From assembly GCA_037043015.1 (NCBI GenBank), contig CM073326.1, positions 5,863,845 to 5,927,844 on the forward strand: a stretch of 64,000 nucleotides of DNA. Reading direction: 5' to 3'. The DNA comes from Bryum argenteum. Taxonomy: Eukaryota > Streptophyta > Bryopsida > Bryales > Bryaceae. Both the position numbers and the translations under genes were made by a program. Within the stretch, counting starts at the first letter, position 1; each line of letters starts with the position of its first letter. Below the pieces are notes generated by a model. It ran no database searches. It was not told the DNA's origin and saw nothing but the letters and a program-made list of their open reading frames with translations. Positions 2,933 through 32,390 of the stretch are shown piece by piece.

Positions 2933-3130
2933 AGAAGAGACATTGAGTCTCATTTCACTTCCGAATTTTGAACACTTTCCAAGAGCTTTGAGCCGCATAA
3001 TTCATTTTATGTGTATATTGCTTGGTAGGTATTGAGTTCGGATTGAGGATTTCCGTAAGGAATTCCTGCCATTTTTTTCCCGTCACGGTCCCACCACTGT
3101 TTAAGACTTTGAGGCGTCCTATTTATCAAA

Positions 3131-5468
3131 ATGGGCCCTGCTCCACATGAGCCTTGGTTTAGAGACATCGAGAAGGAAGGCAAAGCGTCTGGGTCCTTCC
3201 TACAGTGCTCACTATGTCATGTAATTGTTTCGAAGAAGAAGAGTCGGAATTTGAGTCATTATGGGTACGAGAAGATTCCTGGACACAGGGATTCGAGTTC
3301 TGCCCTTTGCCCAAAGCTGTCTAGGGAAATTAGGCAGTTATTTTTAAGATGTGGTGGGGAGTTCCCTCCATATAACAGAGAATTGGAACTATTTTTTGGT
3401 GAATATTCTCTCACTCCATCCATGGACGTTCCAGGTGCTTCAAAACATGACATTCCTGAAACCCCTAGGAGTGACTCTTGTGTAGGGTCCTCGCTAGGCA
3501 CCCCCATGAATTCAACAAATCTTTTGGTAGGGTCAACCTCTGCTTCTTCCATGCTTATGAGAGGAATTAGGGATACTCGCCCGATGTTTGGATCTATGAA
3601 GCAAACGAAGCAATCTTCAATTGAAGCTACTTTTGCAGAAGCGGATAGGCGGGAGTTGGATAAACTCTGGGCAAAATTTTTTTACGAAGCAAATATACCA
3701 TTCTCAGTAGCCCGCAATGATGCTTTCAAAGCTACCGTGATGAAGACTGCGGGATTTCGAAAATCCTATGCTCCACCATCCTACCATGACATTCGGACAA
3801 GGTTGTTAGGAGAAGTAAAGTCGGAGTTACAAAAGAAACTAGATAGTAGACTCTCTGAGAGCCTTCGGAAGTTTGGAGGAACTTTGACTATGGATGGATG
3901 GTCATCTGTGACTAGTCGCCCTTTGGTGAATGCGATGCTCGTGACTCAAGCTGGAGAGCTTTTTCTTGGTGCTGTCGATACTACTGGCCAAGAAAAAACA
4001 GCGGTGTACATGTCAACTCTCATGTTGAAGTACATAGAACAAGTTGGACCAGAGAACATTGTTCAAGTATGCACAGACAATGCTTCTGTAATGCTCAATG
4101 CCTCAAGAATAGTCCTTGAGAAATATCCGCACATTTTCATGCAAGGGTGTGCGACACATGCAATGGACTTGTTGTTGGAGGATTGGGGAAAGGGTTTGGA
4201 TGGATGGCGAATACATTGGTCATGGCGAAGAAAATGGTCAAGTTTATCAAGAGGCGACAAATGCCCCTAGTCGTGTTTCGTAAACACGAGGCGAAATCGA
4301 CCTACGATGCCTAAGAAAACAAGATTTGCTAGTCAATTCATAATGATAGATCGCTTGTTGGAGGTCAAGGAATCATTGGAGCAAGTTGTTGTCGACCCTA
4401 TGTTCATGACCTATGCCTCGAAGAAGACGGTATCTCACTCTGAGATAAGCTTATATTCTCACGTAAGGTCAAGAAGGTGGTGTTGAGCGATGAGTTTTGG
4501 AAGCAATGCAAAAGACTACGGGATATGGTTGCCCCCGTGGTGTACGCTCTGAGAGAATTCGACGGCAAGGCTCCTAGTACGGGCAAGGCATGGCATATCA
4601 TGCGTGATCTTGAGAGACATGTCCATACTTTGCACGCACCGCCCATCTCATTGGAACCACTTGAGGTGGCCACCGCAAAAGAGTAAGGGGTCCACCATTC
4701 CATGACATGCTGGAGCCTAATACTCAAAAACTAGCTCCACATGCATGGTGGGAGTTTGAAGGTGCTTGTGCTAAGCTCCTCTCTCCAATTGCAAAGCGAA
4801 TACTAGCGCAGACCGTGTCCTCGTCGGCTTGCGAACGCAACTGGAGTAGCTACTCTTATGTTCACGACAAAAAACGGAATCGGTTACTACCGGGCAGAGC
4901 TGATGACTTGGTCTACATATATTCCAACTCGAAATTGCTCGCGAATGATAAGTTGAGTGATGATGGGCGGTGGTATAGAGAGAACTTCGATTTAGAGGAA
5001 GACCAAGTACATGAGAATGATGAGGAAGCTGTCGAGGACGAATCAGAGTCTGATGACAATGATGTTTTTGAATTTGGCGATGAAGATGATGATATGACTT
5101 TCTTCCTCGCTTCAAATGATGAAGATGCTCCAAATGTTCATGATGCTAATGGTGATTTTATCGCTCATGGTCTTTCAGCGGATGATCTAGATGATGAGCA
5201 GCCGTTAGCCCGGTTAATGACACAAGGCGGCATGGACAAATCAAATAACATCCTACCTGTTATCGCTACTCGTTTACGGTTGGAAAAGGAGGCGATAGAT
5301 GCGAAGACCACTGCGTGCAACACAACTGCGGGCACTATGAGCTCTGATCCGGCCGCGGAGAATATCGCATCCGGTAGTAAGGATCAAGTATCTGATCAAT
5401 GTGCTACTCCCTGCGCTTTATTTCAACCCTCTATTGGGGAATGCACAGGCGTGAGCGGTGAGCGGTGA
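3131..5468 (+). pseudogene. hAT transposase pseudogene (BED finger, DUF659, hAT C-terminal dimerisation)
   Basis: The transposase would cut and paste a hAT element in the nucleus. Residues about 28-60 form a BED-type zinc finger with CSLC and later His residues. Residues about 240-350 match the DUF659 RNase-H-like part (LTMDGWSSVTSRP, then CTDNASVM and GCATHAMDLLL). The first frame stops at 4270. The middle region continues in other frames around 4310-4480 and 4477-4686 (a stop follows LEVATAKE), and the C-terminal part resumes at about 4700. That last part holds the hAT dimerisation block (SSSACERNWSSYSYVHDKKRN, about 4820-4880) and a long acidic tail. At least three frame changes or stops separate the domains, so this copy is dead. 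The family call is firm. Confidence 0.88.
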
Positions 5469-5490
5469 GCGGTGAGCGGTGAGCAGTGAG
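5451..5490 (+). repeat. Left terminal array of 7-bp repeat GTGAGCG
   Basis: Five units of GTGAGCG (the last reads GTGAGCA) plus a partial sixth run without interruption. The same 7-bp unit appears in inverted orientation as CGCTCAC at 19605-19660. Just inside this array is CCTATTACCACGG, and the inward-facing sequence of the right array carries CCTATTACCGTGG on the opposite strand. This supports paired, decayed terminal inverted repeats. Confidence 0.85.
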
Positions 5491-5780
5491 AAAATTTTCA
5501 AAAAAATCCCCCCAAGTTTACGAATATTAAGTATCCTATTACCACGGTTTAGGGTAAATAAAAATGAAATATTGGTATAGGGTTTAGAAGTAAATGCTCC
5601 CAAACCCGTGGACTTAAGTCACTTTGTTTAGGTTTTTGGGTACAATATACAATAGGTTAGGGCTGACGTCATTACAGACGTCATCACTTTAGGGGTTTAG
5701 GTGGTTTAGGGTTTCTCTCGCTCAAGCAAAAGTCGTGAAGGGCGAGAGAAGGTGACATAATTGTCAGAAGTAGGGGGCTT

Positions 5781-5794
5781 CCTCGTACACGAGG
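5781..5794. repeat. Palindrome CCTCGTACACGAGG, leftmost copy
   Basis: Six-base arms CCTCGT/ACGAGG around a 2-base centre. The flanking GGGGGCTT and GAACCCC extend the dyad imperfectly. It lies between the left terminal array and the 3' end of the methyltransferase gene. Confidence 0.85.
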
Positions 5795-5819
5795 GAACCC
5801 CTAAAAATAGATTTTTTTT

Positions 5820-6120
5820 TTTTAAGAAAAAAATTGTTCGATTTACATATTATGGTTTCAAAATTCCAATTACCTCACAAACATTCTTAATACAAACTGA
5901 GTTTTATATACACCGATTCTCACTCAAACAACAAATTTGATTTGGCGTGATCAAAAAAATATTAGAGCGGTTTAGACATGGTAATTAGAATTAAAACGGT
6001 TTAATATATAACCAATACGCCAAGATGTATAAATAAGTAATAGTAACTCATAAATGAGTTGAAAACATACGAATTCAAAAATATCGAATATTGTTGCCAA
6101 AAGCTATAGGGAGGCTAAGT
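5820..6120. other. Noncoding stretch inside the large element
   Basis: AT-rich spacer between the left palindrome and the stop codon of the minus-strand methyltransferase gene. It would hold the 3' untranslated region of that gene. No further gene is supported. Confidence 0.5.
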
Positions 6121-9100
6121 TCAATAGTAATCAAGAGAATGGTCGCTATCGTGGGGCGTGTCAAATTCTTCATCACATTGGTCAGCTTCAAAATCTATGA
6201 AGCGCAATACACTCTGAGGAAACTTTGGTCGCTGGGCTTGAGCACGAATAGGAGATGGAGCTGCCACCCACTGCTCGGCAAGTCGCTCAGCATACGAGGG
6301 AAGCGCAAATGGCGATGGAGGACTCCGAATGAGATCCGAATGGAGTGATAATCTTCGAGTCAATCCTGCGTGACTAGATTCCAAAGTGAAGTTTAGAAAT
6401 TCCCGTTGACAAAAGCGTCATAAAAAGTTTAAATACAAATAGCAGATATTACGCACCCATGTACTTGCGAGGTTTCTTCCTCCTTGGCTCCACATCCTCT
6501 GTAAGATCTCTGGATGAGCTTGCATCAAGCCGACTTTGCGATTGCTCTAACATCGGTTTCAAGACTGTCGCGAAGATTTCCTCATCTCGCTCCAAGCCGA
6601 TGAGAGAACGATACGTTCGTTTGCATGCGATAACAGAAGCTCCTGTACAAAAACAATTCGAGCAAGTGTTAGTATAAATCACTTGATCACATTTATCCTC
6701 AATCTTGACATAAACCACATACCTGTAGAAACACTCCAATCAAACACGATGTCGTTCTCGTCGGTCAAGCACTCGATAAAACACTGGATGAAATCTGGAT
6801 GCTTCTCCCGAGCGCCCCGCCACGGTTTCCCATCGGGACGTAACATCTGGTCTTCGGCGTGGGTGAAGTTGGTTAAGTTGTCATTGTCGTCCGGGAGAAT
6901 GTCGAGCTGCCCCCATAGACCATTCGATCTCTTTATTTCAAACTTTGCATCCTTTCTTGCAAAGACCTTGATGTGGAAGTTCTGAGTCTACACAATCCAA
7001 TCGGGCGATTAGAAAACCACATTACAATCTATCCAATTGAACGGAGAAAACAATATAGAAATATAAACGCTGTAGATTTACCGTTCTGTCAGAGTACAGC
7101 GCGGACGTCAAACGAAGTGGGTTATAACCCCACCAGTCACGAACAATCTTGAACTGGTAACTATACGTGCACTCGTCCAACTCTCGTTCAATGGCCCTAT
7201 CCCTTGTGTGCATGAGAAGTATAACCCCATCATCCGTTAGATTCGCATCAGCAAATGCGAACACGTTATCGAAATAATCGTCATCTCGCATGTTCCACAT
7301 GGGTACAACGTGTGGTTCGATGAGAGGCACCGTAAGGTTTTCAGGTGCATCAGCGATGATTAGGTCAATGCCGGGATGTTTGGGCTTCATAGTCATGTTT
7401 TGAATGGGCTTATCACGACCTTTCCCAACCTGGACGATAAAGTATAACAATTATTAGTGTCATAAAATCACCACAATTAAAAAGGGACATTGAAAACAAT
7501 ATGAAATTATGAGAATATGGGTTTACCTTACGAATATGCTGCATAATGCGTACAGCCTGAGGTTCCATGCGGGAATTAGTGTCGCTCACGTTCAAAATCT
7601 CACCCATATCTCCGTGCTTGAGGAATATGGGCAAGGGTGATACGTTAGCAGATACTTTCTCAGACAAGTCAGGACGCACCACATCGCGACCGCGAACAAG
7701 CCGATTGAATTTTGTGGCGTGGGATGGCAAGCCATCAACGTCACCAAGACGTTCACTTGCCTGAGTAAGGGAAGGACCAGATTCAGCTTGTGACGAAGGA
7801 CCACCTTGAGACATTGATGCGTTCATGGCTGCAGGTCGTGATCTTGCTGGCACTTGAGCACGTTTCTTCCCAACTTTAGGAGCTCGGTTAGGCATATCGT
7901 CGACGAAGTCTCCTGCATCATTGTCGTCTTCAATGTCGATACGAGCTTGAGGTGCAGAGACGACGCCCATTGACACTGCAAGATCTTGCTCCTCCGTAGG
8001 AACGAACGGGGCGGAGCAGTCCAAAAACCAAGCTCCAGTCTTGAGGGCTACTGTTGAGAACCTCTCGTACTGGCGAGGAGTGAATGCGTTATGCTTGGAG
8101 TCTTTATCACGAGCATCCTTCAGAAACTCGGGAAGAGAAGACAAACGAAGAGCACCTTTGGTCATCAACTCGCGGGTAAAGTACCTGAAAAACAAAATGG
8201 TTTAGAAAACCAATTATTACCAAGTAGAAAGCAAATAAATAAGTAAGCGGGGAGCATAAAATACCTATAGACCAAGAGTTTGATGATCAACGTGCCATTC
8301 TCGAACTTCTTCAAATCGGTTCCTTTGACAAACTTTGGGCCTGCTGTTGGTGCAAGATATGCAAGGTACGCGTGATCCCAAAGGCGCACCCTCCAATGCT
8401 CTACGTAAGCGGATGGAGGGAGAACGTCCTCTTTCCACACAATAGGCATAGCGTGATTTTCGAGGATCTTATTGAACTCTTGTACGAGCTCGAACTCCAA
8501 CTGCAAAAACGATTGTGAATCACGTAAATGAGAATTAAAGCATGATATAGTTTCAGAGATTCGAACAACCCAAAATTCAAGTTTGATCAGAGAGCATGCA
8601 TACTTGTGCCCAAAAAGAAGCCTTCTGAATCCAGGCGTCAAAGGTTTTCTCTTTCATTGACGGTCAAGGAAAACACACAAGTGTCTTTCATTATCCGTGC
8701 TATTCCACCAAGATGACCACTTTGCCTTGAATTCCGGCTCAACATGAGATGTAGCAATCTTTTGAAGTCGCTCAATTGACAACTCGGGTACTGGAAAAGT
8801 CGAGTAATGTGTAGTAATCTGATTAAGACATAACTCACGTCAATTACCATATTACGGGTAATCAAATAGAAAGCAATAATATATTATACGTACCTCGTCG
8901 AAGAACTTGGGGCCATTTTGTGGATTAGCCACCGCGATAAATTTTTCAAAATTTCGACCCTTTAAGATCTTGATGGTCTTTTGTTGCGCATGATGCATAG
9001 CCAACCACACCCCGTGTCCGGTTTGCTTCTCTTTAGCGATGGGTCTCCTTGTAAATCTTTGCAAAGAAGGTCTTGAGCCCGAGAAACCTCTCTCTCGTGA

Positions 9101-10340
9101 ATTACGAAAATCACACAATACAAATTACATAACATTTGACCATAGTCATAAGCGAGATTTGGAAGATCAATACTTAAAATTATTACCTTGAACAAGAATG
9201 CTACGAATACGTCAATCGCCGAGAGAGAATACCAAGTGGTACGCCTTGATTTCTCTTTTTGGCAAAAAGCATATGCCTCTTCCGAAATCAAGTCCCTGAA
9301 AGCCTCAAGTTTCATGGATCCGAACGTCCGAATTCGTTGTAACTTCGCTGGAAGACTACTCTTCACGAAGTCGTTCTCGGTCGACCTACAATTCAAATCA
9401 TATGCATGAGGATGTAAGAAGTTAAGGTTAATGAAAAAAAAAGGAAATCAAACTTCATGGAAGACAACCAACTTACCAATTGACGTCAGCCATGGCATTG
9501 ACGAGAACGCCATTCCTTCCCCGTGCATCAAGCACGATGCAGTCAACCCGAATGTGCCAAGAAGGATCTTCTTGGTGAAACTCTGCAATCTCGCGCATCC
9601 ATGCAGCCAAACGATGATTCCCTTCATAGACAAAAAACATTTTGCCTTGAAATTGATGGAGGTGGACGTCACGAGACAGGTCGTCCTCGAATCGTCTATT
9701 TTCATTCACCCAATGTTCATCCCAAGTGTTGACAATCTCCGGGGAAACAAGGAGATCCCGACTATCCTCGTCATATAACGAGACGTACATGACGCGATCA
9801 CCCTCCCTATAACCTCGGGCAAATTCGTTTTGAAGCCTGTGCACGTCGGCTTCAAGAACAGGTCTAACCTTCGGGTAAGATTGAAGGCGACATAAAGGAA
9901 TTCGAAACCGGGACTTATCTTCCGGTTTGTTGAGAATCCCTTTGATGGCCTTAACGGAGTCCGTCGTGGTGCAAACTCGAATCTCGTGCTCGCTAAACTT
10001 CATATCCTTATCCTTGAGATGTGAAGGATGTTTAGCGGTCTCATCATCATCGGAATCCTCGGAAAGAGATGACGGGCCCTCCATTTGTTGCTCTCTCTCC
10101 GGTGAAGCAAGCCCAAGGGCGTGCGTTGCGTGCACAATAGCAAGATGCTCACTATGATGCACTGCTTGGGCCCCTTCATCCGGAGTAAGCGCTCGCCCGT
10201 CCCCATTCTCAATGTCACCTACGTGATGGCGCGGGGGGATGTCTTGTCCAGTGGATGGTGTCGGGACGTTCGCGATCGCGATCCTCTTCCATGGGTTGGG
10301 TCTCGGAATACTTAAGGGGGAGTATGCTCGCCATTCTCAT
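6121..10340 (-). CDS. ParB/Srx-like domain fused to DNA N4/N6-methyltransferase-like domain, ten exons
   Basis: Exons by eye on the minus strand: about 10340-9477, 9385-9187, 9092-8890, 8790-8604, 8500-8265, 8184-7527, 7429-7082, 6987-6723, 6642-6457, 6365-6121. All but the 9092 acceptor have clear GT-AG borders and consistent phase. Exon 1 carries a ParB-like fold: a hydrophobic strand with FRIPLCRLQSYPKVR, then FFVYEGNHRLAAWMREI (near 9600), like the ParB/sulfiredoxin signature. The C-terminal part matches beta-class methyltransferases: DLIIADAPEN (about 7350) takes the place of the DPPY catalytic motif, and DIVFDWSVSTGAS followed by SLIGLERDEE (exons 8-9) takes the place of the SAM-binding FxGxG motif. 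A basic RRKKPRK near the end may be a nuclear signal. The 5' start is unresolved because the frame is open to about 10340 without a Met. Exon 4 has a one-base frameshift near 8655. ParB-methylase fusions are known in phages and bacteria; a plant copy with introns is unusual. Confidence 0.78.
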
Positions 10341-10344
10341 AATC

Positions 10345-11020
10345 GTCATCGCCATCTCTGTTTGGATAATTGAAAGGGTAAAACACTAAATTAAACTTAT
10401 GCAAACAACAAATGTCAATAGATATATATCAGTAAAAATATGATGATTAATAAACTATCATCCATAGTAATACAAAATATGAATCATTGTATTGTCAAAG
10501 ACAATACAATGTGGAGAGTCAAATCATGAATCAAGTTAAGAAAAAGTTGCTAGCCTAGGAGACCGTCTAGGGGCTAAACGGACCGCATCTCGAGCTTCTA
10601 GTCTCTTCTCACGTGTATGACGTCGCCATTCTCTCATATATAGAGCATGAGCCTCCTTGTCAACAATATTGGATGATACAACATTGGAACGGGAAAAGAA
10701 TCCCCATTAGAGGGCTCACCATGGGAATGATCGTGGCGGGTAAACCTAAGACAACGATACGGTCTCCAATCCAATTTGAACACCGTGACTCATTCCATCA
10801 AAATCACTACTATCGTGTCGGACTCAATGACATGCTCCATGCTATCCGTAGAGAACTCCTGCACACAAAAACAAATATAGCGGTTTAGTCACAATCATGA
10901 GTGCACATTGGCAAATTGAATTAGACATTCTAATCACATCTCAAATATGAACCGTTGATTATTCTTCAGTTCTGAGATTATAATGATCAAAGTTGGCTGA
11001 AATTTTCTCTTGTATACACC
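10345..11020. other. Spacer upstream of the methyltransferase gene
   Basis: Probably holds the promoter or a missing first exon of the minus-strand methyltransferase gene. At about 10540-10670 the minus strand encodes a short basic stretch (MREWRRHTREKRL, then RRSPRLA) that could be an N-terminal exon, but I found no clear donor site. A small dyad, ATTGTATTGTC / GACAATACAAT, sits at 10490-10510. Confidence 0.35.
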
Positions 11021-11023
11021 TAC

Positions 11024-12738
11024 CCTCGTATACGAGGATACCTACCACAAATGAAGTGATGCCCGATTCCAAAGCCCATATATTTAAAATGATTATCAAC
11101 ATTCACAAACTTTTGATCTAACTGGTTAAGATTCGATCTCACCCTCGTATACGAGGATACCTACCACAAGTGGAGAGTGCTTAAGCCCAATGCCCATGCC
11201 CAAAGTGTAATCAAAAGAATAGACAAAAATACGATCAAGAACCGAATTCTTTACTCAACCTCGTACACGAGGCACCCATCAAAACTGTATTTGCTATCCT
11301 TCTTCGTAAACGTATTATAATCAAAATCGGTTCAATAGAGAAAATTTTTAATGCCTACCTTACCTCGTAAACGATAAAAACAACCTGTATTCACAAAAAA
11401 CTACAATAATTTGCAAGAATGGTCAATTTAATCATAATGAATTAAAAGAATTATCTAAACTTAGAAGATTATAGATTTTGAGAGCATTATGAAGACAACA
11501 TAGTAGCAAATATGACTCCCATTACTACAACCTCGTATACGAGGTCACACTGGTTGAACCACCCTACTTCAGCTCTCATGTGTACTTGACCAATCCTTGG
11601 TTTGACCACTCTAATGTCTGCGTGACAAGATCAAAGAGATGAACAACATCACGAATACCAGTACCCGATTCGCTTGAAATCCTCATACCGTCAGCATGAA
11701 TGGATCAGACAAAAAGAGTCATATGTCCAGACGGTGTCCAGCATCGAACACTCCCTCGTGTACGAGGGTACAGGTACAAGTTCATAAATTCTGATTTTTT
11801 TTTTGAACCACCAAAATCACAATTTCGTTCCATCGCCCAGGGGCTCGACGTATGTAGCCTGAGCAGCCACGCAGAACGCGGCCATCACCAGACCCAACAG
11901 AGCCTGACTTCTCACCGAGGCCGCCATGTCTCCCGAATGGCTTGCCAGTTATGTAACTGGGGGAACTTATGCAGCCGGCTTTATACTCGCTGGTCGGTGA
12001 CAGTCGAAGGACCTAGCTCGACTAAGTTGAAAACCCATCCTCGTACACGAGGGCACCTCCGCACTCGCTCACAAACCTACTCGAGCATGAGGATGACAAC
12101 ATCACGAGCATCACGAGCATGAGCATCGCGAGCATGAGGATCCGGAACGGCTGAGGATGACAGCATCACGTGCATGAGCATCACGAGCTCGAGCATCACG
12201 AGCATGAGGATCCTATCACCTTCAACGTCACGAGCATGAGGATCTGGCTCTGAACAATGAATCCCGGTGCCATCCTCGTACACGAGGGCACCCCCGCACT
12301 CACAAACCTCACACACCGCTCACAAACCTACTCGAACATGAGGATGACAGCATCACGAGAATCACGAGCATGAGCATCACCAGCATGAGCATGAGCATCT
12401 CCCCGAATTCATGAGAATCACGAATTCCGACAGTTCCTCGTACACGAGGGAGCCTTCGGACGCAGCAGCCTTCGGACACAGCATGAGCATGAGCATCTCC
12501 CCAGGATCCCCTGCCATCAGTAACCCGTCGACAACCAGGTAATCCAGCTCGAGTTAACTAGAAGAACAGGGTAGAATTGCCTGAAAGAATGCCGGCCCAG
12601 GCAACGCGAGACTCGGGCTATGGGATACGAGCGATGAGATACGAGATTCTATAATCGTTGAGATTCGTTATCTAGGATATTTGAGGTGGTGGGAGGGAGC
12701 CCTCGGACCTAGAACTGAGACCAGCCTCGTACACGAGG
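11024..12738. repeat. Cluster of nine palindromes CCTCGTNNACGAGG
   Basis: Copies with perfect arms are at 11024-11037, 11143-11156, 11259-11272, 11531-11544, 11754-11767, 12039-12052, 12274-12287, 12436-12449 and 12725-12738. A decayed half-site is near 11363. The centre dinucleotide is TA, AC or GT. Spacing is irregular (about 100-290 bp), unlike satellite or CRISPR arrays. Flanks differ between copies, so the 14-bp word itself is what is conserved, as expected for a protein-binding or modification site. The cluster lies in the noncoding core between the methyltransferase gene and the transposase. Confidence 0.85.
12065..12500. repeat. Degenerate GAGCATCACGAGCATGAG repeats
   Basis: Short words GAGCATGAGGAT, CATCACGAGCAT and GCATGAGCATCTCC recur many times, interrupted by three of the CCTCGT palindromes. 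The blocks opening CTCACAAACCTACTCGA at about 12068 and 12328 are a larger direct repeat. No reading frame is supported; this is tandem-type decay in the element's noncoding core. Confidence 0.6.
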
Positions 12739-12739
12739 G

Positions 12740-13640
12740 AGCCTTCGGAACAGGACCACGACAGGACCTAGTTGATTCGGGGCTAGTTGATTCGGCAGGT
12801 GAGTTGTTACACTTCCGACTTCCATGACCACCGTGAAATGGATGGCGCTGAAGCGCGCGACGTACTTCAGCGGATTTCGACTTCCATGACCACCGTCCTC
12901 TTTGTCTAGATCAATCAACACCCTTTGTGGGATCTAGGTTAGCGCGTGATTTGGCACCGTAACCCGGCTTTCGGTTCATCCCGCATCGCGATTCGCTTAC
13001 CAAAAATGGCCCACTTGGAGCTCTCGTTATTCGTCTTTGGGGTTCAACCAAGCAACCCCAGCGGCTTACCTACTTAAAGTTTCAGAATACGTCGAGGGTG
13101 TTACACCCCCGATGCCTCTAATCATTCGAACAGGACCACGACGAACATTATCACGAAGAGCAGTTCATGAGGGTTTAGGCTCATCAGAATGGTTTAGGGT
13201 TTGAACAGGTCGATCTTACCTCTTCTTGTGTGTCTGTCTCAGTCTCCAATTCGGCGACGAATCTCTCCCTTCCTACCTCTATCGAAATGGGAAAACTTTT
13301 CCCACAAGTTCTTAGATGCTCCCAAAACAAATCCTCTGTCTGAATGCTCACCACGTCGACGTCTGCACCCTCCCTTCCGCGCTCCAACATCGTGATCTCC
13401 CCTCCGACTCGGGTTCCTTCTCCAACGTGAATCTCTCCACCAATCTGCCCAGCCATTTCTCTGAAGATAACTTGGAACGGAAGAAAGAAAAAAACGGAGA
13501 AAAAAAACTTCCTGCCGCGAAGAGAGAGACATGGTAGAGCGATGGTAGAGCGATCGTGGAGTCTGCCGAGGGCGCCGAGCCAGTCTCGGTGGCAGCCAGA
13601 ATCGGCGTTCGCAGCCAGACTCGGCGTTGGCAGCCAGCGC
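12740..13640. other. Noncoding core, no convincing gene
   Basis: Several open frames on both strands around 13184-13733 are moderately GC-rich, but none shows a recognisable domain. They overlap one another in different frames and run into the tandem repeat at 13645. I leave them unannotated. Confidence 0.4.
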
Positions 13641-13644
13641 GCTT

Positions 13645-13880
13645 CCGATAGGAGCCGACACCGGAACGGCTGAGGATATTTGATTTTTTTTTTTAAAAAT
13701 TAAACTCCCGGTAGAAGCCAGAACCGGTTTCACACCGGATTCTTGTTTTTTTTTTTTTTTAATTCAAACACCCCGATAGGAGCCAGAACCGGTTTCATAC
13801 CGGATTTTTGATTTTTTTTTTTTTAAATTTAAACTCCCGATAATAGCGAAAACCGGTTTCACACAGCATTTTCGGATTTT
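13645..13880. repeat. Tandem repeat of about 67 bp, 3.5 copies
   Basis: Each unit contains AGCCAGAACCGGTTTCACACCGG-like sequence followed by a long T tract and AAACTCCC. Copies begin near 13645, 13710, 13775 and 13838 with increasing decay. ACCGGTTTCACACCGG is itself partly dyadic. It sits between the palindrome cluster and the small minus-strand gene. Confidence 0.75.
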
Positions 13881-14229
13881 TTGGAATTTTTTTTTCTTCA
13901 CTTCACTCAAGCTAATATCCTGAACCGTTTTCACACTGAAATCTGTGTGATCAATGGACTCTGCTTATATACTAGATTATAGATTATTCATATCTTGTTT
14001 GTTGGATTTGTGACTCTTACCTTTATGGAAATTCAGATGAAATGATTTTTATGAAGCAACCATAAGGGTTTATCTACAAGGAGATGGAGAATATGGTCTA
14101 TTTACTTAACAAAATTGATTTTATACAATCTACAAGGATGTGGAAAGAAAGTATAAAGTTTTCTTTATCCAAATTTCCAAGTACATAGATTAGGCAAATA
14201 GAGAAGTTAATGCGCAATTGAAAAATTAC

Positions 14230-14634
14230 CAATTCATCCGAATCAACTCCTTCGTCTTCATCGTCATTCTCGGCGCGGTGAGAATCACTCTGGGAAGTGC
14301 AATACTTTGAAGCAGTAGAGAAGACCTCGTCTATAGTGTTCTCGCAATCTTCCTCTACTTTTTCATACTCATCGACCTCTGAAACACTCTCTAAGTTAGT
14401 GGCTCGTCTAATACACCTCAGTTGGAATGGGGTTGGCTCCGGCCGCTCCGCATTCCCTTCAAGTTCGCGCTCCTCTCTTGTTCCATCGCATTTGGATTGA
14501 GACATTGACTCTTTCCGCCTCAACGCCATCCGCCTGCGCTGTTTGGAACCACTGAACTTCAAACCTCCTCTCTTCTTCTTCCGTTTCTGTTGAATGTCTG
14601 CACTACTCTCAGGTATTTCAACTATGTCCTTCAT
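14230..14634 (-). CDS. Small charged protein, function unknown
   Basis: The frame opens at ATG 14634 and runs to a donor site (TTG/GTAATT) at 14230, giving about 135 residues; downstream exons were not resolved. The N-terminal third is strongly basic (KRKKKRGG, SKQRRRMALRRK) and could be a nuclear signal. The C-terminal part is acidic (EVDEYEKVEEDCEN, then ENDDEDEGVDSDEL). No family is recognised. It is divergent from the transposase gene at 15435, with a duplicated spacer between them, so the two may share a bidirectional promoter. It could be an accessory protein of the mobile element. Confidence 0.45.
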
Positions 14635-14856
14635 GTAGTCTCTAGAACTGAGAACACCACACAAGAAAACAAGAATACAGCTCTAGATGTCCACTACTTA
14701 AGCTCTCAAGATTAAATGATTTTGAATCCTTGCTCCACTTTTACTATATACCTTGTCCCCGGAACTCAGATTCAATTTTAAAATATAATAAAATATATCT
14801 ACAGTCGGCGCACCCGTCATTCCAATCTTGAACATCTGACATCCTCTATGTTACCG

Positions 14857-15325
14857 GCTTAACATAGGATTATAAATTCTATCTTACGCTTAAAGCGCTA
14901 AGAATATCTACGCGTCTTCCTGACAATGACGGTCGCCGCATCTTTACACGTTTACATAACACCATTGTGTGATCTGCAAAAAACCAAATAAGGCTAATTC
15001 TAACTCAATGTGACTTACTTTTAGTCATGTAGCAAACTTTTAAACCTACTCTGTCAGCCTTTACAGGTGGAGTATACAAATGGCTTAACATAGGATGGCT
15101 TAACATAGGATTCTAAATTCTATCTTCCGCTTAATGCACTAAGAATATCTACGCGTCTACCTGACAATGACGGCCGCCGCACCTTTACACGTTTCCATAA
15201 CACCATTGTGTGATCTGCAAAAATCCAAATAAGGCTATTTCTAACTCAATGTGACTTACTTTTTGTCATGTAGCAAACTTTCAAACTTACTCTGTCAGCC
15301 TTTGGAGGTGGAGTATACAAATGGT
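14857..15325. repeat. Tandem duplication, 241-bp period
   Basis: AACATAGGAT at 14861 recurs at 15102. The following about 220 bp, including TACGCGTCTNCCTGACAATG and a CACCATTGTGTGATCTGCAA block, are nearly identical in both copies. It lies between divergent genes (14634 minus and 15435 plus), so it duplicates what is probably promoter or 5' leader sequence. Confidence 0.85.
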
Positions 15326-15434
15326 TTTATTTATACGAATCTAGGGTTAGAGGTAATAACTATTCAAAATAAATATACTCTGCAGAAAGACTTCCATTCT
15401 CCTTTCTACTATTGTCGTACCTCGTTCTATCATC

Positions 15435-18400
15435 ATGGCATCCTCGTCTTCAGAGCTTACTAGTCCGAACGTTGTCGAAATTCTCTCTCCCGGTGCTCGG
15501 TTCCTCTCACGCATACCAAAGAGGCCCCCAAGGAGTAGCTCATGAATCGCTCAAGTGTTATCAATTAGATTCGGGTTCGATTCGTCGTCTTTGTGGTTAG
15601 AGAAGGACGTTGTAGACCCTATCACCTTGAACGTCATGTATTCCATGGTTGTTGAACCTAGTCCAGTGCTTGTGAATGAGAAGCAAAGCTGGGATCTTAA
15701 TACCGGCAAGTACCGCCTATACGGATTGTCAGAATCTATAATGGCTGCTTCAACTGTCCTACTGACCCCCCGTACTTCTTCTACTCTGTCAACGATCACT
15801 CCCGTTCTACGTCGTATAAAGGTCGAACCATGTGAACGTGTTAGCATAGACCTTACTGAGTCATCTGATGACGAGCGCAACACTTCGGTTCCAAGTAATT
15901 GTTCTCCTCTTCCGCTTCAATCCCCGTCTACTACATCTCAATTGTCTACCCCTATCCCTCAACAACATTCCTCACAAACGTCAAAACCCAAAAACATTCT
16001 CACATGCCTCCTCAAGTTAGGTAGTATGCCCAGTAGCAAGACGATGCTGAAGAAACTAGATTATGCTAGCATCCAGACAATCCGTGTAGTTAGTTTACCA
16101 CCATCTTTCAATGGTGACATTCTCTTCATTCTTCCACCCGTTCTTCTATCTGCTGCTAACAAAAATGCAAAATCCATGGATGGAATGGATAAACGTTACG
16201 ACGGACACTTATGGACTAAAACCATGACCACTAACATCTCCAACACCATGAGCTTGACTTTCAGATCTTCTAATTGTGTTGGTCATGTCCGATGTCGCAA
16301 TCGTAATTGTCCATTCTTCGCGAGAGACCTAAGCGTGCGGAGGTGAACGAAGTTGAGTTCGATGGATCCTCTAAAGACCCATTTGGAGTTGGTGGACCAC
16401 CTCCTTCCGCATCCACGATCGTCTGCGCAGGATTTGTAAGGAACCTCCTATTTGCGTTGCCACTTGTAAAGCTAAGATCTATTATATTTTTGGTGATGAA
16501 AACCAAGAGCGTGCGTGCGTTCATATCGGCAATCACGACCCCCTGTCAAGGTTCGGGACTACTGAGGTACACGGAGCAAGATTGACGAGTTGATTGAAGA
16601 ACATGTCGAACGCAATCCACGAGGCTCCTGTTTCTAAGATTGTTATGGAGGCCAGAGAGACCTTCTAGGAAACTACCTTTTTTTACGTCAAGAGGACGAG
16701 CCTCATACCCACCTATCTTTGAAACAACTAGAGCTGTGTTCGATAGTTGTAAAGACCTAAACTCTCCAAGTATTAAAAACCGTGTCTACACGTTGAGGTA
16801 TCTAAGGCGCTATGGAGTCATGGACGGTATTACCAAACTCGAGAGGGCTCGATGGTGGGCCTTTGTTCGGCGTAACATGTTTCAGGGCAAGGAGACGACT
16901 TGGACAAAGTCTTCATTTTCAAGATGTCGAAGTTGGCCCCGCTAGTGGAGTGGACTGGTCGGCGGATGCAACCTGGTGGTGATCTAGAGCATGCTTGGAT
17001 GATGTTTGATCACGTCAAACGTGTTATCCACTGGACGACCATGGCGTGCCACGCGCATACGACTCGATTACCAACGAGTACTTACAATTGCTTGTTGTGA
17101 TTTTATGTCCGAGGATAGAGAAGCTCAAATTGTTTTTTGGAAGAATCTGAACCATGTGATGTCAAGAAATGGGGTCCCTAAGCCTCAGTTTCAAGGTTTC
17201 ATGGCTGATAGTGCACAAGCCAATTGGAATGCGGTCCGGATCATATACGGTTCTGGCAACCCTACCGTGCCCATGGAAGGACAAGAGAGGACGTGCTTCT
17301 TCCATTGGTCTCAGTCGCTTGAGAAACACACCAAGCAGTACATTCGCCATGAACTACAAGACCAACACAAGCATTTGTGTCTTCAATATAAAAATGCCTC
17401 GTCCATGGAAGAGGCTGAGACACGCTATTTGGGAATCAAAGCATGGTGGACGTCTTCACGCGCTGCTTCCGAGGATGGAGTGAGACATTTGGGGTTTTGG
17501 CTCGCATTCTGGCATTTTCGATATCGCCAATGGGGGGGGTTTATGGAGCTAGTAAGTTCAACCTTACGTGATTCTATGAGTTATGCCTTTTACTACTCCA
17601 GTAAAAAGTAAATTTTTTTACTCAATTTTTTAAATTTTTTTTTAAATCTATATTTAGGAGGCTCCCTCGTGTACGAGGGAGCCCCCTACCTCCAAAATGT
17701 CTTGTGACTTTTCTCATCCTCTGTGACCAAAACTTGATGTTCTTGAACGTAGGAGAAACAATACACTCAAGAGGAGTTAGCGGAGATGCCATCTTGCAAT
17801 CTTGCGGAGTCCGTACACAACAAATGGCTTCAAGCTTCGGGCAACAAAGGTGGAGACCTGTACGTTGCAGCCGTGGACGATTACATTCGAGCCTTCTTGC
17901 AAGTGGTGGCTTATTACCAGTACCTCAAAGGCGGAGCGGGTGGTTACGGACCGTCGAGGAGGAACCCGACTTGAGCAGCCCCAACGACGCGCGCACCGCC
18001 TTTGGAGATCCTTCCTCCTCAACAAGGCAGTCCTTGAGATGCCGGAGCCGAAGAGTTCTGCACTCGTGATGCACATCACGAGGGGAGCCGAGGTTTTCGG
18101 TTCCATGAAACGAAAAGCGCGATGTTCCCATTGGTCTTTGAAGAAGAAACTCATAGACCGGACATCGTAAACTTCTCCCGACCTAAGGTAGGAATTAGAG
18201 TTACTCGAGCACGAGCTCATACTTTGAGCACAATTCGTGAAGAACATGAAGTGGAGGAAAGTCTGCTCAACCTTTGAGCTCTCGCTGGTCCGATATTTAT
18301 GGCGTTAGTGCCGTGCAAGAGACTCGAGTGAACGAGAAGCTATGGCATATTGCCCGTGTCGGTAAGCATTCCGCTAAAGCATGTTGGGCATGAGATGGTC

Positions 18401-19212
18401 AGAACTAGGAAGAAATGTACCGCCCGGATAGTCCTAAACGGGAGGAGCACCCTGACTCCAACTTACACCGGAGTTTGGAACCACCTCGTAAAGCTCCCCG
18501 CAAGGTGGTACAAGAGTTCTTCTTACGTGCGGATGATATTGAGAGGTGCGTGAAGGGATTTCGTCGTAGGTGGATTGAGCCCTTCAGTGAGACGGATGAA
18601 CGACCGCCTATCCCTTTGGTTTGGCCTGTGAAAATCGGGACCAATCTCACGCGTGGTGAAATTGATGCATTGAAGAATGCCGGATTTCAACTTCCTCAAA
18701 AGGAGCGTATCCCTGTAAACCGAACGTTTACGAATGGTGCTCCACCTCGTGATTTGTCCAATGTTCCTGTACCGGATAACGCAGATGTTTTTCCGAAGAC
18801 GCGAAACTCCAAGACCATCTGTCGCTCATGTCCGACAGCCTCGTCGAAGCAAATGAAGAACATATACTCTGCCAAGGCGATGAAGGCAACCATTTTGAAG
18901 GTGACTATGATCCCCGAACCCGGTTTTGGGTGTGTGGTTACGTTGCAGTCTAAACCGCCTCCGACCGAGTCGATCTATCAAGTCTCGATCAGCTCGTTCC
19001 CGGAATGCAATTGCCCAGCATTCAAAGAGACAATGGCTAAGTTAGGTAGACGTGGGAACCCGTATAAAAACTGCAAGCATCTCTACTTTATTCTAGAGTC
19101 AGTCTGCAAACTAGATGTCGAAATGGATCTCTTCATGCATGCGGCTACCCTTAGTTTCAACGAGGTCAAGACAATTCTCGAGAGGGGGGTACTAGACCAC
19201 GTTACTTCTTAG
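15435..19212 (+). pseudogene. Mutator-like transposase with SWIM zinc finger, decayed
   Basis: This would be the transposase of the large element. It starts at ATG 15435 (MASSSSELTSPNVVEIL) but meets an in-frame TGA at 15540. The same frame then continues to 16346 with an acidic SIDLTESSDDE patch and a CRNRNCPFF zinc-ligand motif that resembles a WRKY-GCM1/FLYWCH finger completed in another frame near 16430-16550 (HIGNHD). The catalytic region appears in 16900-17611 over several frames (MFDHVKRV, FQGFMADSAQANWNAV, CFFHWSQSLEKH). An intron at about 17553-17760 carries one CCTCGT palindrome, and the next exon starts EKQYTQEELAEMPSCNLAES. The C-terminal part (18415-19212) has a SWIM finger (CNCPAF ... 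CKHLY, about 19008-19083). Multiple frame changes make this copy inactive. Confidence 0.8.
17665..17678. repeat. Palindrome CCTCGTGTACGAGG inside transposase intron
   Basis: The arms extend here to GGCTCCCTCGT / ACGAGGGAGCC, the longest dyad in the family (about 24 bp). It sits within a probable intron of the transposase gene. Confidence 0.85.
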
Positions 19213-19604
19213 TTCACCCCATTCACTTTATTTACTAGTTTACTCTTTATAGTTTTCCATATTGGCTAGACCTATAAACATTATGTAACACGATATATCT
19301 AAACATTAATATATTTATATGAATACCATGTTTTCCGTGTCACAGTCGTCACTAATTTTGGATATATGATGAATTGTCCAAGTGATCAAACTCGGTTCAA
19401 TTTGGTTGAACAACGTGTCTTCATCACAAAAAAATCCAAAGTATATGCCCAAAAATTCCACGGTTATAGGTACTCAGATCCACGGTAATAGGTGAGAATC
19501 TTGAAAATATTCTTGAAAATATTCGTTTTTTAAATTTTTAATAATATTTTTAGTAATTTTTTTACTACTAATAACTTTTCCTAGCTAAAAAATTTGAAAT
19601 TCAG
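19213..19604. other. Right noncoding end of the large element
   Basis: AT-rich 3' region of the transposase gene leading to the right terminal array. It contains CCACGGTAATAGG, the inverted counterpart of CCTATTACCACGG near the left end. No gene is seen. Confidence 0.55.
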
Positions 19605-19660
19605 CGCTCACCGCTCGCCGCTCACCGCTCAACGCTCGCCGCTCACCGCTCAACGCTCAT
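19605..19660 (-). repeat. Right terminal array of 7-bp repeat CGCTCAC
   Basis: Eight contiguous units: CGCTCAC, CGCTCGC, CGCTCAC, CGCTCAA, CGCTCGC, CGCTCAC, CGCTCAA, CGCTCAT. This is the inverse complement of the GTGAGCG array at 5451-5490. The alternation of C, G and A at the sixth and seventh positions suggests multi-unit amplification. Confidence 0.85.
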
Positions 19661-20061
19661 GCCACAGTAACGTCCACCCACACTTCTTCAGCACGATGAA
19701 GGAAGTGATCATCCTTGCATGTTTGAGGGTTGCAAGTAAAATTATTGGTATTAACTTTGTGACATTCTCGAGGCCAAAGTTTTCCAATGTGATACATCTT
19801 CACATATTTCTTGCACGTCGCCATTCTCCAATATTCCTCCGTTTCATTGGCCCAACCGCTCTCAGCTTTGATGGCCTCATTATCCAAGATCTCGTAGTGC
19901 AACTCATGTCTCGCTCCTTTTGGTTTCACTCTCTTTGACGGTGTCTCATGTAAAACCAACTCAGTCCCCACCAATCCTGCGTTTGTGTTTTCTCTCGCAG
20001 GTGACCTCAAGGTCTGTTCAGAATCAGCTTCCATGTTCGTGTTATCAATATCCGTCGCCAT
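19657..20061 (-). CDS. Cys/His-containing protein of unknown function, copy A (probably truncated)
   Basis: From ATG 20061 the frame encodes about 134 residues, opening MATDIDNTNMEADSEQ and containing ATCKKYVKMYHIGKLWPRE and CNPQTCKDDHF. The spacing of Cys and His suggests a metal-binding domain, but no family is recognised. The product is clearly related to copy B at 25360-26581, which continues well beyond the shared DHF motif. Copy A instead stops within a few codons, exactly where the 7-bp terminal array begins. It may therefore have been truncated by insertion of the large element. A GC island lies upstream in both copies. Confidence 0.5.
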   Translation of the reverse strand: MATDIDNTNMEADSEQTLRSPARENTNAGLVGTELVLHETPSKRVKPKGARHELHYEILDNEAIKAESGWANETEEYWRMATCKKYVKMYHIGKLWPRECHKVNTNNFTCNPQTCKDDHFLHRAEEVWVDVTVA

Positions 20062-27963: not shown

Positions 27964-28920
27964 ATGGCTGAAAATTTGGAATCCAAATTGGACGCCATCA
28001 TGAGTGCTCTTGCTGCATTATCACATAGACAAGCGGAGATAGAAGGAGCCATGGCAAGACTTCACAATGACGGAGCATCCGGGATAACATCATCCAGGAT
28101 TCACCGGTCTCAAGCAACTACACCGGAGGAGGCGACTACACCTTTGGTTCAACAAAACCCAATGATTCAACAACGGAAGGAGCCTAGAGTTAGTCTTCCC
28201 GACAAGTTCGACGGAACGCGTTCCAAGTTTCGAGGTTTTGTCAACCAAATCAAGTTGATAATGATTTTACAAACTGAACGATATCCGACGGAGGAGGCGC
28301 GTGTTGGACTTGTTGGAACTCGCTACATAGGGGCAAGCTTTGTCGTGGTTTGCCCCTTGTTCGAGAAACGATCGCCAATTTTCGAGCAACTTTGAGACGT
28401 TCTTGGAGGCATTTGCAGAAGCATTTGGCGAACATGACAAGGTCCGATGGGCTACAACAAAGATCCGATCACTACGACAAGGAATGCGCTCTGCATCAGT
28501 CTACGCATCGGATTTTAGACAACTGGCTAGTGACATCAACTGGGGCGAAGAAGCATTGGTGAGTCAGTTTTATTGGGGTTTGAGGGATGATGTGAAAGAC
28601 CTACTTTTATCTCTTCCTGATCCGCAAACGCTCAACGAAGCCATTAGCCAAGCTATAAAGTGCGACAACCGTTTATTCCAGCGTCGTCAAGACCAGCGCC
28701 CAAAATACCAAACGAGTCGCTACACCACGAGTATGTCGGCAAACAATTTGAGTTCTCATTCGGAGGCAGAAGCCATGCAAATCGACGCGGCACGTGTCAA
28801 AGCTCTTACTCCAGAAGAGAAGAAACGGCGTATGGAAGAAGGACTCTGTTTGTACTGCGGAGAAGAAGGCCACAAGGTTGGAAATTACCCCAAGAAGCAG
28901 AACCGGCGCATTGTTAAGAC
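27964..28920 (+). pseudogene. gag pseudogene with altered zinc knuckle
   Basis: The start at 27964 (MAENLESKLDAIMSAL) opens a coiled-coil-like N-terminus. The capsid region (RVSLPDKFDGTRSKFRGF) is followed by a frame change near 28325, and the second half (FLEAFAEAFGEHDK, ASDINWGEEALVSQFYWGL) is in another frame. The nucleocapsid knuckle reads CLYCGEEGHKVGNYP: the last Cys of CCHC is Tyr, which should abolish zinc binding. Function was virus-like particle assembly and RNA packaging. Confidence 0.85.
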
Positions 28921-28974
28921 TAGGAGTGCGGTGATCCCGGAAAACGACGATGCGATCTTGACTCTGAGGGAACC

Positions 28975-31900
28975 ATGCGGTGGGACGATTCAATGCCACA
29001 ACAACAATCAGGTTCCTCTTTCTCTGTCCAACCTGCCCGTTGTTTTACAATTCCTTTGTCTCTTGATCCTCAAAAACACAAAACTTTAGCTCTATTAGAT
29101 TCGGGAGCATCTACTTGTTTTTTAGATGAAGAATTTGCTAAGCGCCACAAGATTCGTCTAGTACAGAAGTCCAAACCTGTTTATGTAGAGGTGATAGATG
29201 GACGACCTTTATTGTTTGGCAGTGTCACCCATGAATCAGTACCTATAGAGGTGGCGTTTAAGGACCATAGTAGTTACGTCGTTTTTAATGTCATTAGAAC
29301 CCCGTCAAACCCTGTCATCCTAGGTCTCTCTTGGTTAGAACAACATAACCTACCATAGATTGGAAGTTGCGGAAAATAACTTTTTCCAAAGAACATTCCA
29401 AGAGCCAACCTAGTAGACACCCCAAGATAGGGAAACCATTGTTTATTGGAGCAAGGGCGTTCGTACGATTATCCAAAGAAGCAGCACCCTTTGTCATCTA
29501 TGCAGCCCCAACTAGCACGGAGAAGAGTTCGACGACAAGCATACCAGAGCAATACAAGGATTTTGAGGACGTGTTTCAGAAGAAGAACGCGGACATACTA
29601 CCGGAGCATCGGCCATACGACTGCGCCATAGACCTGCAAGAAGGAGCACAACCGCCTTTTGGCCCAATCTACAATCTCTCTCAGACGGAGTTAGCGGAGC
29701 TGCGAAAGTACATTGACGAGAATCTAGCGAAGAACTTCATTCGTCATTCAAAGTCGCCAGCTGGGGCACCGATCTTGTTTGTAAAGAAGAAGGATGGCTC
29801 CTTACGAATGTGCGTGGACTATCGAGGCCTCAACAAGGTAACTAAGAAAAATCGTTACCCGTTACCCTTGATTTCTGGTCTCTTGGAGCAGCTCGGGCGT
29901 GCAAAGATCTTTACAAAAATTGATCTGAGGGGAGCTTACAACCTCGTACGGATCAAGGAAGGAGACGAGTGGAAGACAACGTTCCCGCAAGGTATGGCCA
30001 TTTTGAATATAATGTCATGCCTTTTGGCCTTACCAATGCTCCGGCTGTTTTCCAACACATGATGAATGACATCTTTCGGGAGCACCTTGACGACTTTGTT
30101 GTCATCTATCTGGATGACATCATGATATTTTCCAAAAACGAAGAAGAGCACGAGAAGCACGTTCGTTTGGTCCTCGAGAAACTACGAGAACGAGGACTCT
30201 ACGCCAAGTTGGAGAAGTGCCTATTCCACCAAACCGAGATGGAGTTTTTAGGGTTCATTGCAACTACAGACGGCTTGAAGATGGACCCTAAGAAGGTGGA
30301 AGCAATTGTATCATGGGAGGTTCCGAAGACGGTTAGAGACGTACAATGTTTTCTTGGATTTGCTAACTTCTATCGAATCTTCATCAAGAATTATTCTCGA
30401 GTCGCTGCTCCACTCACTCGGTTGACTTGTAAGGACAAGCTCGAATGGGGACCTCAAGCAGAAAAGGCATTCCAAGACCTCAAGATGGCATTTATCACAG
30501 CTCCAATCTTGGTACATCCTGACTTTACAAAGGCCTTCTATTTGGAGACCGATGCTTCTGATTTTGCTTTGGGAGCCGTACTTTCACAGATGGACGTGGA
30601 CGGGAAGCTTCATCCAGTGGCGTTCTATTCTCGAAAGTTTTCTGCTGCTGAAATCAATTATGAAATCCACGATAAGGAACTTCTTGCCATAGTAGATTCC
30701 TTCCAAGAGTGGCGACACTTTCTCGAAGGCGCTGCACATCCAGTGACCGTATACACGGATCACAAGAATTTGGAGTACTTTATGTCGGCTCGAGTCTTGA
30801 ATCGACGTCAAGCTCGATGGAATATGTCGTTGTCACGATTTGACTTTGTTATTACCTATCGGTCTGGGAAGCAACAAGGACTATCCGATGCCTTATCGAG
30901 GAGATCGTATCCGCGCCTAAATTTGGAGAAGCGCGTTTGATCAACAATGCACGCATTCTTCAAAAACGGAGCATTTTAGAATTTGCGCTCATTGTCATGC
31001 CGGTGACACGGACTTCCTTAAGCGAGATACGTCTTGCGACAATTGAAGATTCTGTAGCTCTCGAGATCGAAGCGTCTTGATAATGACAAGTTCAAGGTGG
31101 AGGAGATCTTTTGTACTTTGAAGAAGCGATCGTGTATATTCCTAAGGGACGAACACGACTTCGAGTCCTCCAATCACGCCATGACTTTCAAAATTGCAGG
31201 ACATTTTAGATACAACAAGACATTGGAGCTTATTTCGCGAGACTTGGTGGCCCCAAATGTGGAAGGATGTGAAGGAGTTTGTTCTCTCTTGTGATATTTG
31301 TTCAAGGTCGAAGAACCCTCGGCATCGCCCCTATGGACTTTTTGCGGCCCATTGCCTATCCCGCATCGACCGTGGTCTTGATTTCCATGGATTTCATTCT
31401 GACGGACTGCCGCCGCCTTCAAACTCGTTTGACAACATCTTTGTTGTGGTAGATCGGTGACGAAGATGGCGCATTTTGTTCTTGCAAGAAGACATCGTCG
31501 GCGAAGATCTGACAAGACTCTTTCTTGATAATGTATATCGTTATCACGGCTTGCTTAGAGATGATATTGTGTCGGATCGCGGAACCCGATTCGTCTCAAG
31601 TTCGAAATCTCTATTTGAGATATTGAAGGTGGATATCAAGCTTTCTTGGCATTTCATCCTCAAACCGACGGACGAGGCGGAGCGGGTGAATCAAGTATTG
31701 AAGCGATATCACGTTGCACCATCAACTATCAGCAAGACGATTGGATCGAGTATCTACCGCTTGCCGAGTTCGCCTACAACAACACTATTCATGCGTCGAC
31801 CCAACAAACACCATTCTTTGCCAACTACGGATACCACCCGAAGCTTGATTTATGGAATTCAGTGGCCAATAACAACCCAGAAGCGAGAAGATTTTGCGAA

Positions 31901-32390
31901 GCAGCTATCGGAACTTCAAGCAACGCTGAGACTTCAATTGCAAACTGCCCAAGAGTTGTACAAGGCGTCCGCAGATAAATTTCGGAATGAGGCACCTACT
32001 TTCAAGATCGGAGATAAAGTATGGCTGCTTCGACGGAATATCAAGACCAAGCGGCCGTGTGATAAGTTGGACTATCGAAGATTGGGACCATTTGCCATCC
32101 AGAAACAAATCAATCCAGTGGCGTATCGGTTGGAGTTACCAGCTACTATGAAGGTACATCCAGTCTTCCACGTGTCTTTATTGGAACCTTATCGAGAGTC
32201 GACTTTTCCGGGAAGAGTGCGAGGGCCGCCACCTAGTATCGAAATTGAGAACCACGAGGAATATGAGGTGGATAAGGTCTTTGGATTCACGGCGCGAAGG
32301 AAACTTGGAGTATTTTGTGCATTGGAGCGGATACGACATCAATGAAAGAACGTGGGAACATACGCGAAAAATCTTGTAAATGCGCCGGAA
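28975..32390 (+). pseudogene. pol pseudogene: protease, RT, RNase H, integrase, chromodomain
   Basis: Protease has LLDSGAST (about 29090). RT has [18 protein letters not shown], then after a frame change near 29990 it has the [13 protein letters not shown] block and YLDD at about 30107. RNase H has LETDASDFALGAVLSQ and YEIHDKELLAIV. The integrase zinc region (CDICSRSKNPRHRP) and core are spread over three frames (31097-31980). The GPFxI-type C-terminus (RRLGPFAIQKQI) precedes a chromodomain that begins EYEVDKV and finishes in another frame (YFVHWSGYDINERTWE) near 32330. Chromodomains guide integration to marked chromatin. Clearly inactive. Confidence 0.9.

Follow-up and report, generated by a model that had tools for sequence, protein, structure and literature searches.

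The stretch of DNA analysed here (the window) comprises 64,000 nucleotides of the moss Bryum argenteum (assembly GCA_037043015.1, contig CM073326.1, positions 5,863,845 to 5,927,844 of the forward strand), and contains a DNA transposon of 14,240 bp, best fitted by the Mutator-like type, that extends from 5436 to 19675 and whose ends are common to its copies. Two divergent genes are borne by this element: a transposase gene on the plus strand (15436..19212), assigned in part by the fold of a relative and with its frames broken in the window copy, and a ten-exon gene on the minus strand, whose product joins a region with a GNHRL motif to a methyltransferase-type domain. An array of short palindromes lies between them.

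The ten-exon gene begins at 10084, where the open frame has its first ATG, and terminates with a stop at 6121, in agreement with the interval 6121-10340 assigned to it by an earlier reading of this DNA (the initial annotation). Exon 1 (9477..10084, minus strand, as are all the others) holds the GNHRL motif region, which is ParB/Srx-like and whose assignment to ParB is unconfirmed; it is followed by exon 2 (9187..9385), by exons 3 (8894..9095) and 4 (8604..8782), each of which carries a frameshift in the window copy, and by exons 5 (8265..8500) and 6 (7527..8184). Exon 7 (7082..7429) contains the motif IV position, DLIIADAPEN; the S-adenosylmethionine (SAM) motif begins in exon 8 (6723..6981) with DIVFDWSVST and the remaining SAM region, ASVIACKRT..IGLERDEE, lies in exon 9 (6457..6642), while exon 10 (6121..6365) encodes a conserved tail and the stop. 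The window gene includes, besides DLIIADAPEN and the SAM-type motif with GLERDEE, the sequence FFVYEGNHRLAAW. Its exons sum to 3120 bases, with phases that are compatible save where the window copy is frameshifted, inside exons 3 and 4. The initial annotation had described ten exons with mostly canonical borders, a description that holds for all nine donors (GT) and for eight of the nine acceptors as drawn (AG), the exception being that of exon 3 in the window copy; it mentioned neither the frameshifts nor the departure represented by DAPE, and gave none of the element ends (5436 and 19675), the number of copies or the array of palindromes.

That the exons are spliced into a single gene, as had been proposed, is borne out by annotated proteins of the moss Ceratodon purpureus, which support the joins. 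Four such proteins match the gene in a protein database (5.8 billion), with E values of 1.2e-174 to 7.3e-76; three of them (P0001-P0003) are 41% identical across 70% of the query, and the fourth (P0004), which is longer, is 27% identical across 87%. The Ceratodon alignment spans the last join (..YMGL..), and P0004 unites the N-terminal GNHRL part and the C-terminal methyltransferase part in one protein. A second protein search, limited to 7983 candidates, recovered three Ceratodon proteins and no other organism among them, and a search of viral contigs with the family alignment yielded no relatives of the gene family. Within the Bryum genome, diverged members produce at least 79 matches with P0004 (the best 40 of 2217 candidates having been scored), and several members of the GNHRL family have long open frames at 36-49% identity. 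The GNHRL-type family appears to be strongly expanded in this genome, the 2217 being first-look candidates with P0004. Two close relatives of P0004, L036 (C4:20498248-20502105) and L037 (C7:9878379-9882234), with segments that are 63-85% identical and the motif DTPF, possibly represent a gene of this family that has been conserved or domesticated.

The methyltransferase-type domain, with its catalytic position ahead of the SAM position, withstood scrutiny. Exons 7-10 match Pfam N6_N4_Mtase (PF01555) with an E value of 8.2e-5 and 23.1 bits, below the cut-off of 26.7; P0001-P0003 also score under it (14.5-18.3 bits), and P0004 rises above it with 30.4 bits and nearly the whole domain covered. 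A profile of five family members, compared with solved structures, finds DpnA (E 4e-4, in the SAM region) and, weakly, CcrM (E 0.31). Against phage records, P0004 obtains 99 matches at E up to 0.1, the best of which (E 7e-5) is unannotated; among the best 20 of the 99, those from E 2e-3 are mostly annotated as DNA or adenine methyltransferases, and PHROG DNA methyltransferases are matched at E 6e-6. An AlphaFold model of P0004, built from a 10-row alignment, had a mean pLDDT of 40.3 and was not used. The order of the two positions is that of the beta class. The SAM-binding motif region is retained (DIVFDWSVSTGAS..GLERDEE), and the catalytic position departs from the canonical DPPY: the window gene and P0001-P0003 have DAPE, P0004, L036 and L037 have DTPF, L038 has DYPD and the decayed L035 has DTRE, such that none of the nine family sequences (window, P0001-P0004, L035-L038) displays the canonical [DNS]PP[YFW]. 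The simplest reading of these motifs is a fold that binds, or formerly bound, SAM, and whose catalysis would have been lost or altered in the element lineage; the DTPF lineage would be the better candidate for activity.

The situation of the N-terminal region is less favourable. Exon 1 encodes an invariant GNHR preceded by a hydrophobic strand, and the ParB/Srx signature seen by the initial annotation comes down to the GNHRL motif. A domain did not emerge around it: Pfam PF02195, detected in 11 of 14 control genomes, has zero matches in the whole genome at E 1 and matches none of six family members at E 10, and comparison of the exon 1 region with solved structures gave nothing meaningful. Exon 1 has a single match among phage records at E up to 10, annotated as ParB-like (E 0.8), and three among plasmid records at E 3 to 9, none of them annotated as ParB; the ParB-like PHROG phrog_1033 is weakly touched by one of the six members (E 0.047). 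Alignment of the family with hhalign to a first phage ParB set gave no match, and to phage ParB segments it covered 27 columns, at the motif only, with a score of 31.7, which shuffles that keep the motif equal (mean 33.1 over 40 shuffles); these segments had been selected by motif, and 73 of 74 were used, L064 having been dropped by eye as not ParB-like. The pattern DGNHRLxAW occurs 0 times in viral contigs. Phage fusions of ParB and methylase do exist, as the initial annotation had stated, and are represented by L042-L044 among 10 fetched viral loci, with L043 and L044 being the same protein. Read by eye, these fusions carry, within a single open frame, a ParB-type domain and then a methyltransferase-type one, which likens them to the family; they differ from it in the DPPY of L043/L044 and in the lack of introns, while the family's own similarity to ParB is confined to the motif. 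The gene may have been captured from a bacterium or a phage, as had been suggested, but no donor was found.

By contrast, the proposal that a mobile element carries the gene as cargo was supported by ends shared between copies; the copies compared have the same gene in the same place. The element is bounded by a left terminal inverted repeat of tandem GTGAGCG heptamers (5436..5490, plus strand) and a right one of tandem TCACCGC heptamers (19601..19675, plus strand); its left end could be read in nine other copies and its right end in two, and three alignment pieces of copy C6_8.75 extend over 5436-19676. In the window copy, the flanking target-site duplicates, ACCCTCTATT (5426..5435, plus strand) and ACCCACACTT (19676..19685, plus strand), match at 7 of 10 positions, and the 10-bp duplications of the two other complete copies match at 10 of 10 (C6_8.75) and 9 of 10 (C4_10.2). 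Elements of the Mutator superfamily (MULE) generate target duplications of approximately 8-11 bp, a range within which this element falls, and their transposases combine a DDE fold of IS256 type with a WRKY-GCM zinc domain and a SWIM domain. The transposase encoded here, with an intron at approximately 17589-17759 as judged from the frames, appears to resemble IS256-type transposases, which would agree with a Mutator-like element. Its relatives P0005, P0006, P0007 and P0027 have no Pfam match at E 10, its pieces in the window do not match PF10551, the MULE domain, at E 5 (a model that need not cover all members), and a search of viral contigs with P0006 found no relatives.

The element is present in more than 30 recent copies, the window copy being included in both of the following counts: exon 1 gives at least 41 matches, of which at least 32 cover nearly its full length at 95-100% identity (best 40 of 91 candidates scored), and exons 7-8 at least 40 matches, at least 34 of them near full length at 95-100% (best 40 of 102 scored). 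Contamination was ruled out by the introns and by the presence of more than 30 copies on at least 10 contigs. The linkage between the gene and the transposase is based on four copies whose right half was fetched, one of them in part: C4_10.2, C6_8.75 and C8_7.7 align with the transposase gene up to the limits of the fetched pieces, whereas the alignment of C1_14.4 covers the first part of that gene, up to 16097.

The third component of the element is the 14-bp palindrome CCTCGTRYACGAGG, which occurs 11 times in the window, always within the element and never in a modelled exon (0/11). Nine of the 11 sites form the array between the two divergent genes (11024..12738); one lies near the left end (5781..5794) and another in the presumed transposase intron (17665..17678), all being given on the plus strand. 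When one mismatch is allowed in the 12-bp core, 15 sites are found in the window versus 0.87 expected, and 14 of the 15 lie in the element. Genome-wide, CCTCGTRYACGAGG is present 313 times, compared with once for its backwards control. All of the 50 sites listed, which are on C1, lie within 25 kb of an element landmark and 48 of them within 15 kb, a distance within which only 1.3% of random places fall. A control palindrome has 46 genome sites, which are dispersed, with no two among those listed within 30 kb; this indicates that a palindrome as such can outnumber the backwards control without its sites being clustered. It is of note that, at L182 (C1:39693900-39697400), repeated units with a GCCATNATGGC palindrome, four of them exact, lie upstream of a diverged subfamily member, and that no palindrome of its own was found at L183.

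A precedent for this layout is provided by the VANDAL elements of Arabidopsis, whose VANC proteins bind noncoding regions of their own elements, at tandem repeats with short motifs, leading to the loss of silent marks, according to the available portions of PMC10398659 and PMC5735166. The likeness encompasses a Mutator-type transposon (MuDR in the part of PMC12730594 at hand), an accessory gene and a noncoding array of short motifs (PMC10398659, PMC5735166, in part); the Bryum protein differs in having a methyltransferase-type domain, and its motif is a 14-bp palindrome, so that the two systems are likened by layout and not by protein sequence. The second protein may serve the element as an accessory epigenetic factor of a self-targeting kind, directed at the DNA of the very element that encodes it, a proposal to which we give a little less than an even chance. 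The protein would bind the CCTCGTRYACGAGG palindromes, or else the heptamer ends, and either SAM or its methyltransferase fold would serve it in recognition or in an altered modification; the promoters of the element could in this manner be kept open, or be marked against host silencing, as VANC does for VANDAL. The notion that it is the palindrome array through which the protein acts comes from the VANDAL-like layout, with the mechanism itself being inferred, and is put forward as tentatively as the proposal of self-targeting. A more elaborate version, in which a moss Mutator-like lineage recruited a phage-type fusion of ParB and methylase as a sequence-specific factor that reads the array, dedicated to it, and modifies or shields the DNA of its own element, amounting to an anti-silencing system with an origin separate from that of VANC and possibly with a new chemistry at the DAPE site, is improbable as a whole.

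Several observations weigh against a self-targeting factor that reads the palindromes. The ParB half of the protein rests on one motif, GNHRL, and the label is a lead. Among the one-mismatch sites, 2 of the 14 within the element fall in modelled exons, and 1 of the 15 in the window lies outside the element. Between copies, the CCTCGTRYACGAGG sites are no better conserved than their surroundings (0.070 vs 0.052), with 1516 of 2000 random sets not exceeding the palindrome difference rate, and one of five palindrome sites is missing or changed in several copies; this lack of excess conservation gives no sign of selection on the palindromes. The diverged pieces L034-L039, L182 and L183 are devoid of CCTCGTRYACGAGG. 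The palindromes could alternatively be sites that the transposase binds, or short repeats that spread, and be unrelated to the methyltransferase-like protein. We give this alternative less than an even chance, somewhat less than the self-targeting proposal, and it can hold alongside the other ways of reading the gene. It would account for the two sites that fall in a 40-bp imperfect inverted repeat, and for the resemblance of some adjacent sites to tandem duplicates. Transposase sites are usually found at element ends, however, and 9 of the 11 palindromes are placed in the middle of the element, between the genes.

The gene itself raises a comparable difficulty. In a comparison of the window with nine copies (an eleventh, the fragment C6_18.0, having been excluded), exon 3 is uninterrupted in 5/9 other copies and exon 4 also in 5/9, the two sets not being the same; not one of the 10 copies, counting the window, has all ten exons open. 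This last result slightly lowered our estimate for self-targeting and raised, to the same small extent, that for a captured host or bacterial gene that is decaying within the element as a passenger of no use to it. Capture of gene fragments is known from Mutator-like elements, and the window copy also carries a fragment of 28S ribosomal RNA (rRNA). Such a passenger is nonetheless rather unlikely, given that the copies compared carry the same gene at the same place, that 41% identity to Ceratodon persists over 70% of the protein, and that the ratio of nonsynonymous to synonymous (N/S) differences between copies is 0.57 (8 of 10 exons). In addition, variable columns are distributed nearly equally over the codon positions (75, 76, 91) and the copies differ from one another slightly more in exons than in introns (9.1 vs 7.7%), with the result that constraint among copies is weakly supported; these points, too, count against a functional accessory protein. 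The least probable of the alternatives, and a distinctly doubtful one, is an active DNA amino-methyltransferase that would mark element DNA with 4mC or 6mA, in the manner of N4CMT of bdelloid rotifers. The PF01555 match, with P0004 above the cut-off, and the conserved SAM region are in its favour, as is the DTPF of P0004, L036 and L037, which retains the D, the P and an aromatic residue; the lack of [DNS]PP[YFW] in all nine sequences argues against it, all the more as a change of SPPY to APPA abolished the activity of N4CMT, as reported in the accessible part of PMC8885841.

In copies of the gene that are approximately 95-98% identical, the same exon positions are repeatedly affected by small indels, and gap columns are commoner in exons (64 of 2739) than in introns (13 of 844). 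CpG-linked miscalling was considered as the source of the frameshifts and rejected, deletions at CpG being hardly enriched (0.123 vs a background of 0.105) and substitutions slightly so (0.144). CpG context fails to explain the recurrent exon indels, which may reflect either assembly error or real decay.

Epigenetic helpers borne by transposons are already known from Arabidopsis, fungi and oomycetes. Fungal DNA transposons encode TET/JBP dioxygenases, and oomycete HarbingerS and MuDR elements encode SET methyltransferases (PMC12730594, in part); these resemble the Bryum element as DNA transposons with a gene for an epigenetic modifier, but employ other enzyme folds, and the portion of PMC12730594 at hand mentions no amino-methyltransferase. 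DIRS1-like retrotransposons are also eukaryotic mobile elements with a methyltransferase domain, although they are retroelements in which this domain is located in the pol region (PMC2685390, in part). Bacterial-origin amino-methyltransferases that work in eukaryotes include the N4CMT of bdelloids (PMC8885841) and the 4mC methyltransferase of Marchantia (PMC12344493), which the available sections of both sources describe as host genes; N4CMT, moreover, has the canonical SPPY. A search of open-licence PubMed Central papers with narrow terms found no description of the present combination of gene and element. If correct, the proposal of a self-targeting factor would add to the known helpers a moss Mutator-like element with a helper of methyltransferase fold and a candidate target array, and would open the origin of such helpers to direct assays of binding and of methylation. 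That the canonical motif is lost in 9/9 sequences, with the SAM region retained, makes this family a good test of repurposed methyltransferases.

A further open frame of 194 codons between stops is present in the element on the minus strand (14101..14682), and has no Pfam match at E 5. The 28S rRNA fragment lies within the element at 12730-13176, on the minus strand (Rfam RF02543, 171 bits), and, of seven other copies that align beyond it, is spanned only by C6_8.75. The element is inserted in a hAT transposase gene (3113-5465, plus strand), recognized by DUF659 (E 2e-33) and by the hAT dimerisation domain (E 1e-12). Elsewhere in the window, a Ty3/gypsy-type polyprotein (28331-32342, plus strand) and a resistance-like gene of TIR-NBS type (61443-63370, plus strand) were recognized by eye.

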